NCBI GenBank assembly: GCA_947629335.1
Contig: CANRDI010000003.1
Span: forward strand, 1 to 64,000
Source of the DNA: an uncultured Clostridia bacterium
GTDB taxonomy: Bacteria > Bacillota > Clostridia > Oscillospirales > Ruminococcaceae
Length of the DNA: 64,000 nt
Reading direction: 5' to 3'
Shown here: in pieces, positions 18,029-42,237 of the stretch
Layout of the letters: each line of letters starts with the position of its first letter
Numbering within the stretch: position 1 is the first letter of the stretch
The notes under the pieces: generated by a model
What the model saw: only the letters and a program-made list of their open reading frames with translations
Told to the model about the DNA's origin: nothing
Databases searched by the model: none
Program-made: the position numbers and the translations under genes

Positions 18029-18527
18029 CAAATAATCCCTCAAGCGGCACAATAAGCATTTCTCCCGCGTCTGTGTCAATGCTTTTCACAATGTCGTCGA
18101 TATACGGAAACATAAGCTCGCGTCCGTTTTCTTTTTTTATTGAATAAACGTCAGTCGCGCCGTTCTGGTAAACGTCCGAGATTTTCCCGTAAACTTCGCC
18201 CGTGTTGAAATCTTTTACGGTCATACCTATTATGTCCTGGATAAAATAAGTTCCTTCGGGCAGCTCTACATCATCTCTGTCCATATACAGAATTTTCCCG
18301 ATAAGTTTTTGCGCGTCCTCAATGCTGTCCACGCCTTCTATTTTCAGCACCACAACGTTTTTATGCACATACGCTCTTGTAATTCTGACAGGCGTTTTTC
18401 CCTTGTCAAAATAAAGCGTTTCAAACTCGCACAGAATATCGGGAGAATCACAGTAATACTGACACCTTACCTCGCCGCGTATTCCCTGTGTAGAAACTAT
18501 CTTAGCTGTTTCGAGAAACTGTTTCAT
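18018..18527 (-). CDS. rimM: 16S rRNA processing protein RimM
   Basis: AKIVSTQGIRGEVR; PRC-barrel part; adjacent to trmD. Confidence 0.95.
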   Translation of the reverse strand: MKQFLETAKIVSTQGIRGEVRCQYYCDSPDILCEFETLYFDKGKTPVRITRAYVHKNVVVLKIEGVDSIEDAQKLIGKILYMDRDDVELPEGTYFIQDIIGMTVKDFNTGEVYGKISDVYQNGATDVYSIKKENGRELMFPYIDDIVKSIDTDAGEMLIVPLEGLFDED

Positions 18528-19959
18528 CTTTCTTTTCCTTTTTTTTGTTTAAGATAAGCTTTATCGCCTGGATACAGGTCTTAAAGTTTATTGCCGCAAT
18601 CACAATAAAAATGACGGAATTTATAACGTTCTGCAAAAGTCCGTATTCAAGAAACATTATCGAAAGCGCCATTCCCGTAAGAAGCGCTATGTTTACCGTT
18701 ACCTTTACCCAGTATATCGTCATATAAAGCAGCTTTTTCGTGTCGATAACACGGTAGATAAAAACCAAAAGATAGCTTGCGAGCGTCGCCACAGCCGCTC
18801 CCGATATGCCCATAACGGGTATCAGCAAAAGGTTCAGCACAATATTTGCTCCCGCGCCGATAGCCGAAGATATAAGCGCATGGGTAGTTTTTCTCGACGC
18901 CTCGTAAATGCTCGAAAGAAAGTTGTTAAAGCACTGAAATATGACCGCTCCGAGAAGTATCGGCACATAAAAATATGCCGGCGCAAACGCTTCTGTTCCG
19001 AAAAACGGCATTATCACAGGTCTTAAAATAAGCATTATCCCCGCGCACGCAATAAATACCACCGTCTGCATCATACTGAAAATGTTCGAGTAAAAATTCG
19101 ACACAGTGCGCGAGTTCCTTTCGGTAATAGCCGACATATGCCAAGCCTGAGCGAAAATCCCGACTATGACCGCCGCAAGGTTCGGGAATTTATAGGCAAA
19201 TCCGTAAATTCCGTTTGCGTCGCTTCCGATAAATGAAGTCACCATAAAGCCGTCCGACATATTGATTATCCACCACATTATTGTCGTCGGCATAAGCGGT
19301 ATGCTGTATCTCATCATTGAGATATAAAGCTGTTTGTCGTTTCTGAGCGGTCTGTACTGTTTGTAAAGGCGCGCGGTTATGTTTAAAAATACTATCGACG
19401 CGAGATTGCTGAGTACTACCGACCATATATATCCGTTTATCCCCAGACCGAAGATGCCGAGAAGAACGAGATTGAAGATTATCATTGAAACGGTCGTTAT
19501 AATTCCGTCTATCGCAAAAAGTTTTACGGAAATTCTTGCTCTCACATAAATTCCGCAGACCTCTTTCAGCGCGCCCGCTAAAACGTAGATGAAAAGCATC
19601 CACTCATAGCCTTTAAGCATCGGTATAAGTCCCACGAGCGGCACAAACGCCGCAAATACCACGCACCCGCAGACCGCGACGTTTATTCCGATAGAAAAGA
19701 CCATTTTGCCGTTATTATTTCTTTCGAGTGCAAAACGCAGAACGCCCTCCGCAATGGACAGCGAAAAAACCGATATAAGAAGCGAACCCGCGTTTATGAT
19801 ATTCGTCATATCGCCATAGCCCGCAGTTCCGAGCATACTTGTGTAGAATTTCAGCATTACATACACAAGTAGCTTTGAGCTGAACTGACCTATGCCTAAA
19901 ATGACGATATTTCCCGCTAAGGTTCGGTATCTGTTCTGTGAATTAGGCTTTACACTCAT
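18502..19959 (-). CDS. Polysaccharide biosynthesis/oligosaccharide flippase family membrane protein
   Basis: Polytopic protein with IGQFSSKLLVYVMLKFYTSMLGTAGYGDM N-terminal signature of the Wzx/MATE-like superfamily. Confidence 0.85.
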   Translation of the reverse strand: MSVKPNSQNRYRTLAGNIVILGIGQFSSKLLVYVMLKFYTSMLGTAGYGDMTNIINAGSLLISVFSLSIAEGVLRFALERNNNGKMVFSIGINVAVCGCVVFAAFVPLVGLIPMLKGYEWMLFIYVLAGALKEVCGIYVRARISVKLFAIDGIITTVSMIIFNLVLLGIFGLGINGYIWSVVLSNLASIVFLNITARLYKQYRPLRNDKQLYISMMRYSIPLMPTTIMWWIINMSDGFMVTSFIGSDANGIYGFAYKFPNLAAVIVGIFAQAWHMSAITERNSRTVSNFYSNIFSMMQTVVFIACAGIMLILRPVIMPFFGTEAFAPAYFYVPILLGAVIFQCFNNFLSSIYEASRKTTHALISSAIGAGANIVLNLLLIPVMGISGAAVATLASYLLVFIYRVIDTKKLLYMTIYWVKVTVNIALLTGMALSIMFLEYGLLQNVINSVIFIVIAAINFKTCIQAIKLILNKKKEKKDETVSRNS

Positions 19960-20035: not shown

Positions 20036-20494
20036 TTATCGTCTGCGCAGATCCTGAAAAAAATCCGAAAGTATCTTCCCGCATTTTTCTTCGAGTACTC
20101 TGCTTTTTACTCGCGGAATATGCGTGAATTTTTCGTCAAAAAGCGCCGTTACAGACGCCAGAGCGCCGTTTTTTTCGTCGAACGCTCCGTAAACTACCCG
20201 CTTTATGTCTGCATTTATAGCCGCCCCCGCGCACATAGGACACGGTTCGAGCGTTACATAAAGCGTGCAGTCCGAAAGCCTTCTGCTTTTAAGATGTTTC
20301 GCGGCGCGCTCTATCGCAAGTATCTCCGCGTGAGCGGTAGGGGAGATAAGTTTTTCGCGCTCGTTAAAAGCCTCTGCGATTATCTCGCCGTCTTTGTCAA
20401 CGACAATTGCTCCCACGGGAATTTCCCCCATTTCGGCAGCTTTTCCCGCAAGCGCAAGAGCCTTTTCCATATATTCCTCGTCAGTAAATGTCAT
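20036..20494 (-). CDS. tadA: tRNA-specific adenosine deaminase
   Basis: HAEILAIE and PCPMCAGA zinc motifs; internal start at 20494 overlaps the upstream stop (ATGA). Confidence 0.93.
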   Translation of the reverse strand: MTFTDEEYMEKALALAGKAAEMGEIPVGAIVVDKDGEIIAEAFNEREKLISPTAHAEILAIERAAKHLKSRRLSDCTLYVTLEPCPMCAGAAINADIKRVVYGAFDEKNGALASVTALFDEKFTHIPRVKSRVLEEKCGKILSDFFQDLRRR

Positions 20495-23442
20495 AACCGC
20501 TTTATAAACGGAACTGCGACGGTAACGACAGCGCTTATCACGCCGTACAGCAGTATCCACAGACCGTTGAACATACTGTACTGTTTAAACAGCATAAATA
20601 TCACCGCGAGCAGTATTCCCAGCGCCACAGTACAAATTTGTACTATTGAGCCTATATTGATCTTTGCGCGGAGTTTTTTTGCTGCGGAAATGCCTTCTGC
20701 AAACGACGAGAACGTTCCGCCGAGAGAAAGACCCGCGTTTCCGCTCGAAATAAACTTTGTACATTCGTTAAAGTTGTCGTGGCTTTCAAAAGGAATGACC
20801 TTTACAAGATCTTCGGGTATATCAAATATATTTGCTATGGAAGAGCCGGTGATGATACCGTCAACAGTTTTTACTATTATAGTTACATCTTCCGAAACAA
20901 GTCTTTGTACTTCGGCTTTTATCTTTTGGTCGGCAGTTACCGAAACGAAAAACAAAAGGCATACTTCTCCGCCTACGGCAAGATAAATAACATTGTCATT
21001 CTTCGGGTTTGCGGCGGTCTCTTTTTTGATGCTCGGAACGGAGATTTCATGCGCCATCATATGCTCGCGTGTTCCTAAAAGTACTCTGCGTCTGTCTATC
21101 CAGCCCATAACGCCGAGGTTGTTTTCATAGACTGTTCCGTTTACAGGCTTTAAAAGCTCAGGTTTATAGTCGAGCATATTGAAAAGTGCGTCGGAGAGTA
21201 TGCTTCCCGAAGCATATGCAAGGCTTGCGCCGAGAATGATAGCCTCGTCGATATTTACTTTTCCGTCGCCGCGGTTTGAGGGCTTGTCATAGCCGCAGAT
21301 GTTGTCTATAACGACGTTTGACGGAGGAAAGAGCGCCGAAGCCTCTGCGAGAACGGAGTTTGTGTCGCTGAAATTTTCTACGGCTTCATAGCCCAAGATC
21401 GCAAATTTTTCTTTTCTGCCTTTTATTGAGGCGAGCAAAAGCGGTATCGTCACAGTCATTGAACAGGACATCGCCGCCCCCAGACAGCAAACCGCCGAAA
21501 ACACGGTAAATGCCCATGAGAGATTGTTCTGCCAGAAAGAAGCGTCGCCGTTTGTAAAAAATGCAATTACTGCCGCAATGACAGCCGTTATAAGCGTCGC
21601 CACAGCGGTCTTGCCCGAAATCCTGTCGGACGCGTCCTCACAGTATGTCGAGATGATAAAATCTTTAAGCATCTCGGTCTTTCTCATAGCCGCCGTTACA
21701 GGAACGCCTGAAACAGAGCCTTTTGAGAGCTGTTCGGCGCTTCCCTTATCGCAGATATCGGCGAAATATTTTGCCCCGTCAGCCGAAACAAACGCAAAAT
21801 TTCTTTGAGCGGTCTTTACTGCAATAAACTTTGAAAGGGTATTGAAGCACAAAAGCGCGAGCGAGACCACAAGATAAACGTGTGATTTGGCGTGCTGGAT
21901 ATATTCAATTCTCAAGAGATAGGGAATTATCGACACTATCGCCGCTATATGCGCGACAGCACACAGCGTATCTCCGTCGGGACGCAGCCTGAAAAGTCTC
22001 GAAAAGCCGTTTGAAATAACAGAAGAACAGCTTCCGAACGACAGAACTCCGATCGTCAGCATACAGTAAAGATAGTTTTCCGAATAAGTTTGTATATTTA
22101 TGATAGTTCCGAGAGGACCTAAATTTTGAGCCCCTGAGGTTATCAGAATACCTATGATAAGCGTTACTAAAAACAGAACGCCCGTAATTATCAAGCGCCA
22201 GAAAAGTCCCTTTGCAGAGCGGCTTAGGCGTTCGCGTATAACGTTTTCATCGTCGAGGTCGATAGTTTCTTCTTCCTCTTCTTGCTGTTGTTTTGTATCG
22301 TCGTCATAGCTCGTTTCGGATCTGAATTCATCTTCTTCTTCGCTCGGATTTTCGAGGATAAAGTTTGCGATCCTGCGTTTGCGTTTCTGCGCAAGCTCGT
22401 TCGCTGTACGGATCTTTTCGAGTTCTTCGTCCTCGTCTGTCTGTTCCGATATTAAGTTTATTTTTTCCGAGCCTGTTTCGCCGGTGGGGTATTCCATATT
22501 TTCGGGAGTTTTTATGGTATACGACTTTTGCTCGTTTTCGGTGGCAATTTTCTTTTCAAGCGCGTCGGTTATAGAATTTCCGATATGAAGCTCGCTCATT
22601 TGTCTTCCTGCCGGAGCAGGCGTATCTGCCGCGCTGTCTTTTCTGCGCGTAGAGGGCTTATATTCTATAACGTGGTCTTCTTTCCCGATCTTTTTGAAAT
22701 CATTTCCCGCAATAGCGAGCGTGTCGGTCGTTTCATCGTCAAGTCTCAGCATATCCGCAACCTTTTCACGCTTTGCCGCAGGGTTCAGAAGATCGAGCAT
22801 TTCGTCCGGACTTTGCGCTTCGCTGTCGGCTTTCAGAAGGGCTTGGTTTATTTCGTTGATACGCTGTTGTTTGCGCATCTGCATTGTTTCTGTCGTAACG
22901 AGATCGCCGCGCGTATGGAAAATAATATCGTCGTTTTCCCCCGCAACATCGGGTTTTGTAAACGGTTTTACAAACTCGCTTTCCGAAGTATCGCCGTTTT
23001 GAGAAAAAGCGTTATTTTTTTCCGTTTCGCCGTTCATGACCAGAGTATTTGTATCGAAAGTAAGTTTTTGATTATAGCCGTTCGGAACAAATTTAAGCTC
23101 GTCGTCAAAAAGACGTTTTCTCCTTTCCGACTCTATGGCTTCCGAAATTTTCTCGCTGCGGCGAAGATCTGTCTCGCTTTCGGTAAGCTGTCTGGCGGAA
23201 ACGTTATCCCGCTTGTCGGAATACTGGTTTATAAGCTGTGTAACGCTTAGATCGGGCTTTTGTTTTCCCGCTTTGGTTTTCTTTTTCTGAGAGCCGGCGT
23301 GAAGAAGTTTGTCGAGATCGTTTTGATTGATTATATCGGTAACGCTCCCGTTATATTGATCGTTCATTTCTTCCTCGTCTTCTGTACGAAGATCGTCAAC
23401 TTCTTTTAAAATGTTTTCAATATCGTAGTTCTTGCTTGACAT
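20491..23442 (-). CDS. Large membrane protein with degenerate P-type ATPase-like C-terminal half and long acidic N-terminal region
   Basis: See finding; ATG at 23442 with AAGGAG RBS preferred over GTG at 23451. Confidence 0.7.
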   Translation of the reverse strand: MSSKNYDIENILKEVDDLRTEDEEEMNDQYNGSVTDIINQNDLDKLLHAGSQKKKTKAGKQKPDLSVTQLINQYSDKRDNVSARQLTESETDLRRSEKISEAIESERRKRLFDDELKFVPNGYNQKLTFDTNTLVMNGETEKNNAFSQNGDTSESEFVKPFTKPDVAGENDDIIFHTRGDLVTTETMQMRKQQRINEINQALLKADSEAQSPDEMLDLLNPAAKREKVADMLRLDDETTDTLAIAGNDFKKIGKEDHVIEYKPSTRRKDSAADTPAPAGRQMSELHIGNSITDALEKKIATENEQKSYTIKTPENMEYPTGETGSEKINLISEQTDEDEELEKIRTANELAQKRKRRIANFILENPSEEEDEFRSETSYDDDTKQQQEEEEETIDLDDENVIRERLSRSAKGLFWRLIITGVLFLVTLIIGILITSGAQNLGPLGTIINIQTYSENYLYCMLTIGVLSFGSCSSVISNGFSRLFRLRPDGDTLCAVAHIAAIVSIIPYLLRIEYIQHAKSHVYLVVSLALLCFNTLSKFIAVKTAQRNFAFVSADGAKYFADICDKGSAEQLSKGSVSGVPVTAAMRKTEMLKDFIISTYCEDASDRISGKTAVATLITAVIAAVIAFFTNGDASFWQNNLSWAFTVFSAVCCLGAAMSCSMTVTIPLLLASIKGRKEKFAILGYEAVENFSDTNSVLAEASALFPPSNVVIDNICGYDKPSNRGDGKVNIDEAIILGASLAYASGSILSDALFNMLDYKPELLKPVNGTVYENNLGVMGWIDRRRVLLGTREHMMAHEISVPSIKKETAANPKNDNVIYLAVGGEVCLLFFVSVTADQKIKAEVQRLVSEDVTIIVKTVDGIITGSSIANIFDIPEDLVKVIPFESHDNFNECTKFISSGNAGLSLGGTFSSFAEGISAAKKLRAKINIGSIVQICTVALGILLAVIFMLFKQYSMFNGLWILLYGVISAVVTVAVPFIKRL

Positions 23443-23462
23443 AAAATGCACTTCTCCTTGAA

Positions 23463-24197
23463 TTATTTCCTGTATTTAATTATTTCGTACATCAGAATTC
23501 CCGCTGAAACTGAGGCGTTCAGCGAATTTACCTTTCCGTTCATGGGCAGCGAAACTATAACGTCGCAGTTTTCTCTTACGAGCCTTGAAAGTCCGAACCC
23601 TTCCGACCCGACAACTATCGCCGCTCCGCCCGAAAAATCGACTTTATCATATGGTTCGCCGTCGGCTTCCATTCCATAGACCCAGATGTTGTTTTTCTTG
23701 AGAGTTTTTATCGTGTCCACGAGATTTGATACTCTTGCGACCTTTATCCATGCCGCGGCTCCCGCAGATGTTTTATAAACGGTAGAATTAAGTCCCGCCG
23801 AGCGCCTTTTCGGGATTATAACGCCGTCTGCACCCGCCGCTTCGGCTGTTCGGATAATAGCGCCGAGGTTATGAGGGTCGGCTATTTCGTCGGCAATTAT
23901 GATAAAAGGCGGTTTTCCTCTTTTTTCCGAAACGCCGAGAATGTCCGAAAGCTGAGCATATTCTGCTGCGCAAAGCTCTGCGCATACGCCGCCATGTTTT
24001 TGCGTTTTTGCAAGAGAGGCAATTTTTTCCGCGCTCACGGTTTTGACGACCGCGCCGCGTTCTTTTGCGAGAGCCGAAATGCTTTCGATTTTGATATCCT
24101 TTTGAATGAATATTGTATCTATTTCTTTATCCGAGCGAAGAGCTTCAATAACGGCGTTCCGTCCGAAAATTATCTGTCTTTCCGTATTATTTTCCAT
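23463..24197 (-). CDS. rlmB: 23S rRNA 2'-O-ribose methyltransferase, SpoU family (RlmB-like)
   Basis: IFGRNAVIEALRS; DEIADPHNLGAIIRTAEAAGADGVI; VVGSEGFGLS; VSLPMNGKVNSLNASVSAGILMYE. Confidence 0.92.
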   Translation of the reverse strand: MENNTERQIIFGRNAVIEALRSDKEIDTIFIQKDIKIESISALAKERGAVVKTVSAEKIASLAKTQKHGGVCAELCAAEYAQLSDILGVSEKRGKPPFIIIADEIADPHNLGAIIRTAEAAGADGVIIPKRRSAGLNSTVYKTSAGAAAWIKVARVSNLVDTIKTLKKNNIWVYGMEADGEPYDKVDFSGGAAIVVGSEGFGLSRLVRENCDVIVSLPMNGKVNSLNASVSAGILMYEIIKYRK

Positions 24198-24320
24198 TTT
24201 TTTCCTCAATATAATTAAGATATAACAATACATTATTTATTATATCACAAATTAAAATATTTTTCAATAACAAAATCTCGGCAAACTGATAAAATTTCGT
24301 AAAAAATAATGTCATAACCG

Positions 24321-39445: not shown

Positions 39446-42196
39446 TTATTTGTTTTTTGAAGAACTGCCTGCAATTGCTTTTCTGATAAGGTCTATCGGT
39501 ATTATCGAAATTCCGAGAACCAGAACCACAAGCCATTCCGTAACGTTCAATCCCCAGCCGTTCAAAATATCTCCGCCGACATAGGTCATAACTATCTGCA
39601 CGATTGCGATAATTCCGAATACCGTCAAAAAGCCCTTGTTTTTGCCAATGTTGTCAAAGAGGTTCATCTTTTCGGTGCGCGCGTTAAATGCATTGAATAC
39701 GGCAATGAAGATAAAGAACGCAAAGTATGCCGTGTGGAGTATCGCGTGGTGTCCGTCAAGCTCCAGCGCATTTCCCGTTGCCTCTCTCATTAAGCCCCAG
39801 CTTTCGAGGTAGCTTGTGTCATTGCCAAGCGGCGAGTAGTTTCCGAGAATGAGCATTGCAAGCGACAATACGAACGTCCAGCCTGCGCCTACAATAATTT
39901 CCGACATCATATTCTTGCTGATGATCGGCTCTGTCCTGCGCTTTGGCTTTTCGTGCATATAGCGGCTGAGCGCAGGCTCTCCGCCGAATGCAAGCGCCGC
40001 CAAGGTATCCATAACGAGGTTTACCCAGAGTATCTGGATAACGTCGAGCGGGTTCGCCAGACCGATAAGCGGGCAGATAAACGAGATAAGAACCGCCGCA
40101 ACATTTATCGTAAGCTGGAATACTATAAACTTTCTGATTGAATTGAATATCGTGCGTCCGTAGAGGATAGCGCGGTCAATCGAGTTGAAGTTGTCGTCAA
40201 GGATAACAATATCCGAGGCTTCTTTTGCAACTTCCGTTCCGCCACCCATTGCAAAGCCGACGTCGGCTTTTTTCAGTGCAGGGGAGTCGTTTACGCCGTC
40301 GCCCGTCATTCCCGCAACGAGGTCAAGATCCTGCGCGAGCCTTACAAGGCGGCTCTTGTCCGAAGGAAGCGCACGCGCGATAACTCTGATGTCCTTTAGC
40401 TTTGCTTTTATTTCCTCGTCGGACATCTTTGAAAGCTCGTCGGAGGTGAGCATAAGATTTGTCTTTTCGTCGTCAATAAGTCCCGCTTCTTTCGCTATTG
40501 CAACAGCGGTTTCGCGGCGGTCGCCCGTTATCATGACGACCTGAACTCCCGCGCCCTTGACTTCCTTTATTGCCGTAACGGATTCGGGGCGAACCTCGTC
40601 GCGTATTCCGAGACACCCGATAAGCGTCCAGTTATTTCCTTCTGGAAGCGCATCCTCGCCGAGCGCGTCCTCGCTTGTCGCAAGCGCTAAGACGCGTATC
40701 GCGCGGTTTGCAAGCTCGTCTATCTTCGCATTCAGCTTAGACATATCAAAAGCCTGTTTTTCGCCGTTTTCATCATAATAGTGCGAACATCTCTGCAAAA
40801 TCTTTTCGGGAGCGCCCTTAATGAGCGTCAGGTTGTATTCTCCCTCTACCTGTGTAGCGGAATATTTGTTTGTAGAGTTGAACGGAATGTTTTTAACTGC
40901 CTTTACGTCGGCGTTTGAAATGTTGTCTATTCCGTAGCCCAAAATAGCGCGTTCTGTAGCGTTTCCGCCGAGAACTCTGCGGTTATTGCCCTCGCCGCTT
41001 ATCATAGAGAGCGTGTTTTTGTGGATAGACAATGACAGAAGCTCTTTGAGCTTTCCGTTTATTTCGTTCATTGTCTTATGCTCATTTACCGCGCCGTCAA
41101 TAAAGTTTATCGCTTCGAGCTTGCCTTTGGTTATCGTTCCCGTCTTATCCGAGAAGAGAATGTTGAGCGAGCCTGCGGTTTCAATTCCCGCTACCTTGCG
41201 CACAAGAACGTTGTCTTTAAGCATTTTGCCCATATTCTGCGCGGAAACTATCGCTATCATAAGCGGAAGTCCTTCGGGAACTGCCATAACTATGATAATA
41301 ACTGCAAGCATTACCGCCTGTATTACCGCCTCGATAAGCGCCATCCACCGAAATGCGCCGTCCGCAAAGAAAAATACTGCGGGGTTGAAGCCCGTGTCGA
41401 ACAAAATGATTTTCGCAAGCATTGCAATTGCGATTGCAACGCCGCCTATATAACCGAATTTTGAAATACCGTTCGCAAGTTTTCCGAGCTTTAATTTAAG
41501 AGGAGTTTCTCTGTCGTCGTCGGTCTGGAGTTCGCTCGCTATCTTGCCGTAAACGGACTTATCGCCGACTACGGTTACTTGCATAACAGCATTTCCCGAA
41601 CAAACGACCGCGCCTCTGAATACTTTATATTCGTTGTCGAAATTTGTGTTTTCGTCAGTATCGGTCCAACCGTCGGGAATTGCCTTTTTCTTTGCCTCGC
41701 GGCTTTCGCCGTTAAGCACCGACTGGTCAACTTTAATGTCGCCGTCAATTATAATGCCGTCCGCGGGTATCTTATCTCCCGACTGGAGCAGTATAGCGTC
41801 TCCGACAACTATATCGTTTATTGCAACTTCCGCTATAACGCCGTTGCGGTAGGTCTTTACCATAATTCTCGAAGCCTCTTCCTGAAGCTTCTGGAAAGCG
41901 TTTTCGTTTCTGTATTCGGAGAATGTCGAAACGAGCGTCGCAAGACATATAGCAATGAAAATTCCGAGAGGCTCGTACCATTCGGGCGCGCCCTCTTTTA
42001 TAACGCCGGTAATTCCGAGAACAGCCAGTACAACGTTTATCAGCAGCGCGACGATAAGAATTTTAATCATCGGGTCGCCGAGGTTTCCTTTGAGCTTATC
42101 CCAAAAACTTTCGTGAGCCTGTTCAGTCATAGAGTTGTCGCCGTATTTTGCTTTGCTTTCGGCAACTTCCGCATCAGTAAGTCCAAATTTCTTCAT
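39446..42196 (-). CDS. Calcium-translocating P-type ATPase, PMCA-type
   Basis: SDKTGTITKG, MITGDRRETAVAIAKEAG, MTGDGVNDSPALKKADVGFAMG; start MKKFGLTDAEV at 42196. Confidence 0.95.
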   Translation of the reverse strand: MKKFGLTDAEVAESKAKYGDNSMTEQAHESFWDKLKGNLGDPMIKILIVALLINVVLAVLGITGVIKEGAPEWYEPLGIFIAICLATLVSTFSEYRNENAFQKLQEEASRIMVKTYRNGVIAEVAINDIVVGDAILLQSGDKIPADGIIIDGDIKVDQSVLNGESREAKKKAIPDGWTDTDENTNFDNEYKVFRGAVVCSGNAVMQVTVVGDKSVYGKIASELQTDDDRETPLKLKLGKLANGISKFGYIGGVAIAIAMLAKIILFDTGFNPAVFFFADGAFRWMALIEAVIQAVMLAVIIIVMAVPEGLPLMIAIVSAQNMGKMLKDNVLVRKVAGIETAGSLNILFSDKTGTITKGKLEAINFIDGAVNEHKTMNEINGKLKELLSLSIHKNTLSMISGEGNNRRVLGGNATERAILGYGIDNISNADVKAVKNIPFNSTNKYSATQVEGEYNLTLIKGAPEKILQRCSHYYDENGEKQAFDMSKLNAKIDELANRAIRVLALATSEDALGEDALPEGNNWTLIGCLGIRDEVRPESVTAIKEVKGAGVQVVMITGDRRETAVAIAKEAGLIDDEKTNLMLTSDELSKMSDEEIKAKLKDIRVIARALPSDKSRLVRLAQDLDLVAGMTGDGVNDSPALKKADVGFAMGGGTEVAKEASDIVILDDNFNSIDRAILYGRTIFNSIRKFIVFQLTINVAAVLISFICPLIGLANPLDVIQILWVNLVMDTLAALAFGGEPALSRYMHEKPKRRTEPIISKNMMSEIIVGAGWTFVLSLAMLILGNYSPLGNDTSYLESWGLMREATGNALELDGHHAILHTAYFAFFIFIAVFNAFNARTEKMNLFDNIGKNKGFLTVFGIIAIVQIVMTYVGGDILNGWGLNVTEWLVVLVLGISIIPIDLIRKAIAGSSSKNK

Positions 42197-42237
42197 AGGT
42201 TTTCCTTTCTTATTATATAAGCGGTATGCCCGCATAT

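Follow-up and report, generated by a model that had tools for sequence, protein, structure and literature searches.

The window (the whole stretch of DNA analysed, 64,000 nt in length) carries on its minus strand the following genes, among them one that encodes a pump-like protein, hereafter pseudo-P1B; throughout, 'the order' denotes that of the host (GTDB Oscillospirales):

23463..24233, minus strand: rlmB-type SpoU rRNA 2'-O-methylase, directly upstream of pseudo-P1B and a conserved neighbour across the order
20491..23442, minus strand: pseudo-P1B ATPase gene, 983 aa, with ATG at 23442 and ribosome-binding site AAGGAG upstream
20036..20494, minus strand: tadA-like deaminase, with a 4-nt ATGA overlap; a neighbour in this genus only
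18502-19959, minus strand: MurJ/polysaccharide flippase-like gene, after tadA in the genus and two genes past pseudo-P1B

The open reading frame of pseudo-P1B extends over 20491-23451 (minus strand) by way of an upstream GTG; since the orthologues begin at the ATG at 23442, and a ribosome-binding site precedes it, we took this codon as the start, and the coordinates given in the initial annotation (20491-23442) are thus correct. The protein had no Pfam match over the cut-offs and, at E-values up to 10, no Pfam match to the HMA domain (which is also missing from some canonical P1B pumps); its NCBIfam matches were sub-threshold only (CopA 6e-8; TIGR01525 2.5e-6). Literature searches (covering open-access papers) found no paper on an inactive bacterial P-type family, nor do the passages retrieved from a 2023 review (PMC10654040) describe one. 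The family is unnamed in the Pfam and NCBIfam libraries searched, and represents pseudoenzymes built on a known fold; as a kind of system it is not new.

Hydropathy and modelling divide the protein into approximately 400 mostly disordered acidic residues and a core with eight membrane helices, with the parts given below:

residues 1-402 (22237..23442, minus strand): acidic N-terminal region, for the most part disordered; helical islands at residues 8-20, 184-234 and 336-363
residues 6-15 (23398..23427, minus strand): N-terminal helix motif YDIENILKEV, order-wide [YF]S[IVL][DE][DE]ILxE
residues 417-542 (21817..22194, minus strand): four membrane helices, MA, MB, M1 and M2 (hydropathy and model)
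residues 543-611 (21610..21816, minus strand): shrunken A-domain, with a 36-residue stretch deleted and MLTGES turned into QLSKGS (alignment)
residues 612-673 (21424..21609, minus strand): M3 and M4, the CPC position reading AAM
residues 700-704 (21331..21345, minus strand): EASAL at the DKTGT position, followed by a conserved FP (alignment)
residues 731-812 (21007..21252, minus strand): N-domain-like part, with SGSI for SEHP and NLG for GxG, the second G being invariant
residues 859-861 (20860..20868, minus strand): TVD at the TGD position (homologue alignment)
residues 933-980 (20503..20646, minus strand): M5 and M6 (hydropathy and model)

The relationship of the core to P1B pumps is shown along two lines, since the sequence profiles and the predicted fold both give it. 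At the sequence level, LpCopA (3rfu, 1e-6), a copper pump, was the only relative that phmmer retrieved from the PDB, and the family profile aligned with a canonical CopA profile over 510 columns (probability 99.9, E 2e-35), collinearly, starting in the first membrane helix and reaching into those of the C-terminus. At the structural level, the AlphaFold model of the core (pLDDT 83.5, pTM 0.79), computed without templates from an alignment of family members alone, had P1B pumps as its best Foldseek matches in the PDB (4bbj 2e-17, 3rfu 6e-15, ATP7B and 7r0g); the TM-scores are moderate (0.4-0.58) and the rmsd large, as is to be expected from the shrunken domains and from the varied states of the pumps compared. 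A further hydrophobic stretch (residues 818-836), beyond the eight helices, is modelled as a beta-strand. We consequently rejected a chance resemblance on the strength of the CopA and TIGR01525 matches, the LpCopA match, the profile-profile alignment and Foldseek, and the P1B layout that the initial annotation had read into the C-terminal half is confirmed by the same evidence; the unrelated fold that it had named as the outcome against its proposal was checked by structure prediction, and a P1B fold was found.

The state of the pump motifs was scored column by column in the profile alignment and in 71 non-identical homologues. At the column of the phosphorylated Asp these have Glu (26), Asp (21) or other residues (24), and the Lys that should follow is present in none of them (0/71); Asp or Glu is frequently found at the former phosphorylation site or beside it (the position slides between columns), and the loop ends in a family-specific F-P (F in 63/71, P in 64/71). 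Neither TGE (SKG in the window protein) nor CPC (columns mostly A, P/A/S and F/L; AAM in the window protein) occurs in any of the 71, the N-domain His of SEHP is lost in all of them, the first G of the GxG is mostly N (with the second invariant), and at the position of the DPxK lysine D or N predominate, K not being among the residues listed. The TGD site, on the other hand, survives as T-x-D (D in 70/71, T or S in 65/71, G lost), and the most conserved columns are those of the headpiece. Furthermore, DKTGT, GDGxND and TGES were scanned for directly, and none of them was found in the homologues from 21 families (the genus and 20 further ones); the loss of the catalytic motifs is, judging by this, old. 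The initial annotation had identified the replacements of DKTGT (EASAL) and TGD (TVDGIIT) and an N-domain-like stretch (GWIDRRRVLLG), all of which the alignment places where it had put them; its claim that SSGNAGLSLGG stands for GDGxND holds as to the absence of the motif, but the profile alignment shows that the region was deleted rather than plainly substituted. The conservation of motif loss, which it had suggested checking, is borne out by the order homologues scanned, and orthologues with an intact DKTGT, which would have spoken against it, were looked for across the order and none was found.

With respect to distribution, the family profile gave full-length matches in 13/13 sampled genomes of the order (306-748 bits). 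The 230 genomes sampled from elsewhere in the class had none, their matches reaching at most 136 bits and being confined to the part common with canonical pumps; a sample of the phylum likewise yielded no pseudo-P1B relative outside the order. Among order genomes at least 95% complete, approximately 291 of 297 had a match better than about 1e-39, one of these (G515, 4e-40) being borderline in comparison with the best canonical pumps. Pairwise omega within the genus was 0.04-0.12 (Nei-Gojobori counts; in pairs that are further apart the synonymous sites approach saturation, but close pairs agree). Pseudo-P1B is thus under strong purifying selection, and with such omega values the protein is doing something. 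Two copies (L035 in genome G014 and L037 in G058) have in-frame stops or a split frame, and may represent assembly errors or single-lineage losses. A weak second match in the host's own genome (G000, contig C10) was discarded, as it covered a charged stretch and a transmembrane helix in a protein whose gene lies in an ABC-transporter cluster.

The gene neighbourhood is deeply conserved on one side only. Directly upstream, rlmB was present in 19/20 loci from 20 other families (the sole locus without it having an obgE-like gene instead) and in 28/28 genus loci whose flank was long enough. The six genomes that lack pseudo-P1B did not yield the close RlmB orthologue either (weaker paralogues or nothing being present); two of them are members of a single genus, for which this points to a real joint loss, and the other co-absences may be assembly gaps, since the genes are adjacent. 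The rlmB link may, for its part, be simply an inherited operon order. Downstream, tadA overlaps pseudo-P1B in the window (ATGA, 20494-20491) and follows it in 29/29 genus loci where this side is visible, but in 0/20 order-level loci, in which unrelated genes (EF-G-like, Lon, Era and YebC, by sequence) occupy the position. The translational coupling to tadA proposed in the initial annotation therefore stands as far as the overlap is concerned; a functional link to tadA as conserved context was rejected, for it is genus-level gene order and the deep neighbour is rlmB.

The N-terminal region has a net charge of -36 over residues 1-405, with runs such as EDEEE, DEDEE, EEEDE and EEEEE, in line with the hydrophilic, EEEEE-bearing N-terminus described initially; that the protein had gained this region holds in so far as the extension exists, but not as a recent gain in this protein, since it is order-wide and very variable in length. 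In model and alignment the helical islands coincide with conserved blocks, the first of which recurs across families in variants such as YSIDDILKEV, FSVEEILQEA, FSLDDILREV and FSIDDILAEF. The strict pattern occurred in 43/69 homologues and in no shuffled sequence (the homologues being related, these are not 43 independent events), and with the patterns used the motif was not found in 23/69. Searched for in 61 genomes, it gave 22 matches, 18 of them within the family; the 4 outside, in unrelated proteins, equal the 4 of the reversed control, and we rejected the idea of an address tag common to other proteins. The full-length model (pLDDT 61.9) is too uncertain to show the N-terminus docked on the core. 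In our interpretation, a short helix located where a flexible tether ends resembles a recruitment site, and represents the best handle on function.

As the phosphorylation, phosphatase and Mg2+ loops are lost, established pump chemistry implies that the P-type cycle cannot run, and the absence of CPC and HMA speaks against a part in metal handling; pseudo-P1B would accordingly go through no phosphorylation cycle and pump no metal. That it no longer pumps we consider very probable, and this part of the initial annotation is strongly supported by the P1B fold, the order-wide motif loss and the purifying selection. The fuller claim, that we are dealing with a catalytically dead P1B-type ATPase family which acts as a non-pumping membrane scaffold or sensor, is in our opinion reasonably probable: the role is plausible and is arrived at by elimination, and both function and partner are putative. 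The helix motif on its tether would recruit a cytosolic partner to the membrane, the locked headpiece and the helix bundle would provide a fixed surface for docking (or else react to a ligand or to the state of the membrane, with no ATP being hydrolysed), and the whole would work as a housekeeping, constitutive scaffold or sensor. Residual binding of a nucleotide or phosphate by the T-x-D and the headpiece glycine is possible, as far as the conserved residues indicate.

The main rival to this reading is a passive channel, carrier or scramblase, in which the bundle would move a lipid or ion downhill and the headpiece would serve as a phosphorylation-free gate. It would agree with the retention of all eight helices, with Pro being the commonest residue (31/71) at the old CPC-proline column of M4, and with the MurJ/polysaccharide flippase-like gene after tadA (a genus-level arrangement); we nevertheless regard it as unlikely, given that conservation is strongest in the headpiece, that the helices showed no conserved set of polar or metal-liganding residues, and that the window protein has Ala at the proline column. 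Pseudoenzymes often regulate active relatives, and canonical P1B pumps are carried by most of the order genomes checked, so that a regulatory subunit pairing with an active P-type ATPase (e.g. CopA) and modulating it has to be considered. Two genomes (G531 and G340), however, have pseudo-P1B without any P1B over the curated TIGR01525 cut-off, which argues against an obligate CopA subunit, and no P1B gene was noticed beside pseudo-P1B in those order-level loci for which the neighbouring genes were examined, making such a partnership improbable.

Even less credible is an unusual nucleotide- or phosphate-dependent activity, exerted through the T-x-D together with an acidic residue, shifted in position, close to the former phosphorylation loop: the retention of the T-x-D, and the frequent Asp or Glu at or beside the phosphorylation site, would be explained by it, but not the sliding of that acidic position, the consistent loss of the following Lys and of the N-domain His, or the deletion or replacement of GDGxND and TGE. 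Finally, a decaying pseudogene or an annotation artefact would account for the loss of every catalytic motif, but is contradicted for the family as a whole by open frames in nearly all genomes, by family-specific conserved motifs, and by the omega values and order-wide conservation from which recent decay was rejected; we give it next to no credence. The reading as a non-pumping scaffold or sensor is the one that we retain. Textbooks present P-type ATPases as pumps and define them by the Asp that is phosphorylated in DKTGT. An order-wide protein of P1B fold that lacks the pump machinery and is nevertheless strongly selected would represent a clear family of pseudo-pumps in prokaryotes; it would make testable, in an animal-gut group, what the P1B fold does without the cycle.

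Other P-type proteins are encoded in the same genome. Within the window, a P2-type cation pump (39446-42235, minus strand) has intact DKTGT and GDGVND, and may serve as a useful active control. Outside it, on contig C1, lies a protein (pseudo-P2; L184:5992-8463, plus strand) with PF00122 and PF00689 over the cut-offs, in which, as in the genus members read, EKEGA stands for DKTGT, and TGES and GDGxND are lost. Like pseudo-P1B, it combines a P-type fold with catalytic loops whose loss is conserved across the genus; unlike pseudo-P1B, it is P2-type and its loss is more recent, with intact relatives in the same family (L197, L198 and L200). In another relative from that family (L196) the site reads VEKTGT and the remaining motifs are gone, so that catalysis can be seen to disappear stepwise. 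Pseudo-P2 degenerated independently of pseudo-P1B. An undecaprenyl-phosphate translocase-like gene (PF04018; L184:8448-9326, plus strand) follows it directly, as it does in 4/4 genomes read (L184, L185, L186 and L187; Pfam-confirmed in two), which suggests a role in the recycling of the cell-wall lipid carrier. It is conceivable, albeit a long shot, that these gut bacteria have, on more than one occasion, turned P-type pump folds into regulators or scaffolds that serve membrane processes and need no energy input. Pseudo-P1B would then be a core housekeeping hub linking the membrane to a cytosolic process (via the helix motif; perhaps a ribosome-related one, in view of its operon with rlmB), and the recycling of undecaprenyl-phosphate would be regulated by pseudo-P2.

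Among known systems, the closest are the P1B pumps of the CopA group (LpCopA 3rfu/4bbj, ATP7B, TIGR01525), with which pseudo-P1B shares the eight-helix bundle and the fold and order of the P and N domains. In comparison with them it is devoid of DKTGT, TGE, GDGxND, SEHP, the DPxK lysine, CPC and the HMA domain, its A-domain is cut down, and a long, disordered acidic N-terminus takes the place of the HMA domains. Apicomplexan guanylate cyclases (TgATPaseP-GC) likewise have a P-type-ATPase-like domain, a pump fold within a signalling protein, but, unlike pseudo-P1B, this domain is eukaryotic and P4-type, is fused to cyclases, and has kept its DKTGT (PMC6592433).
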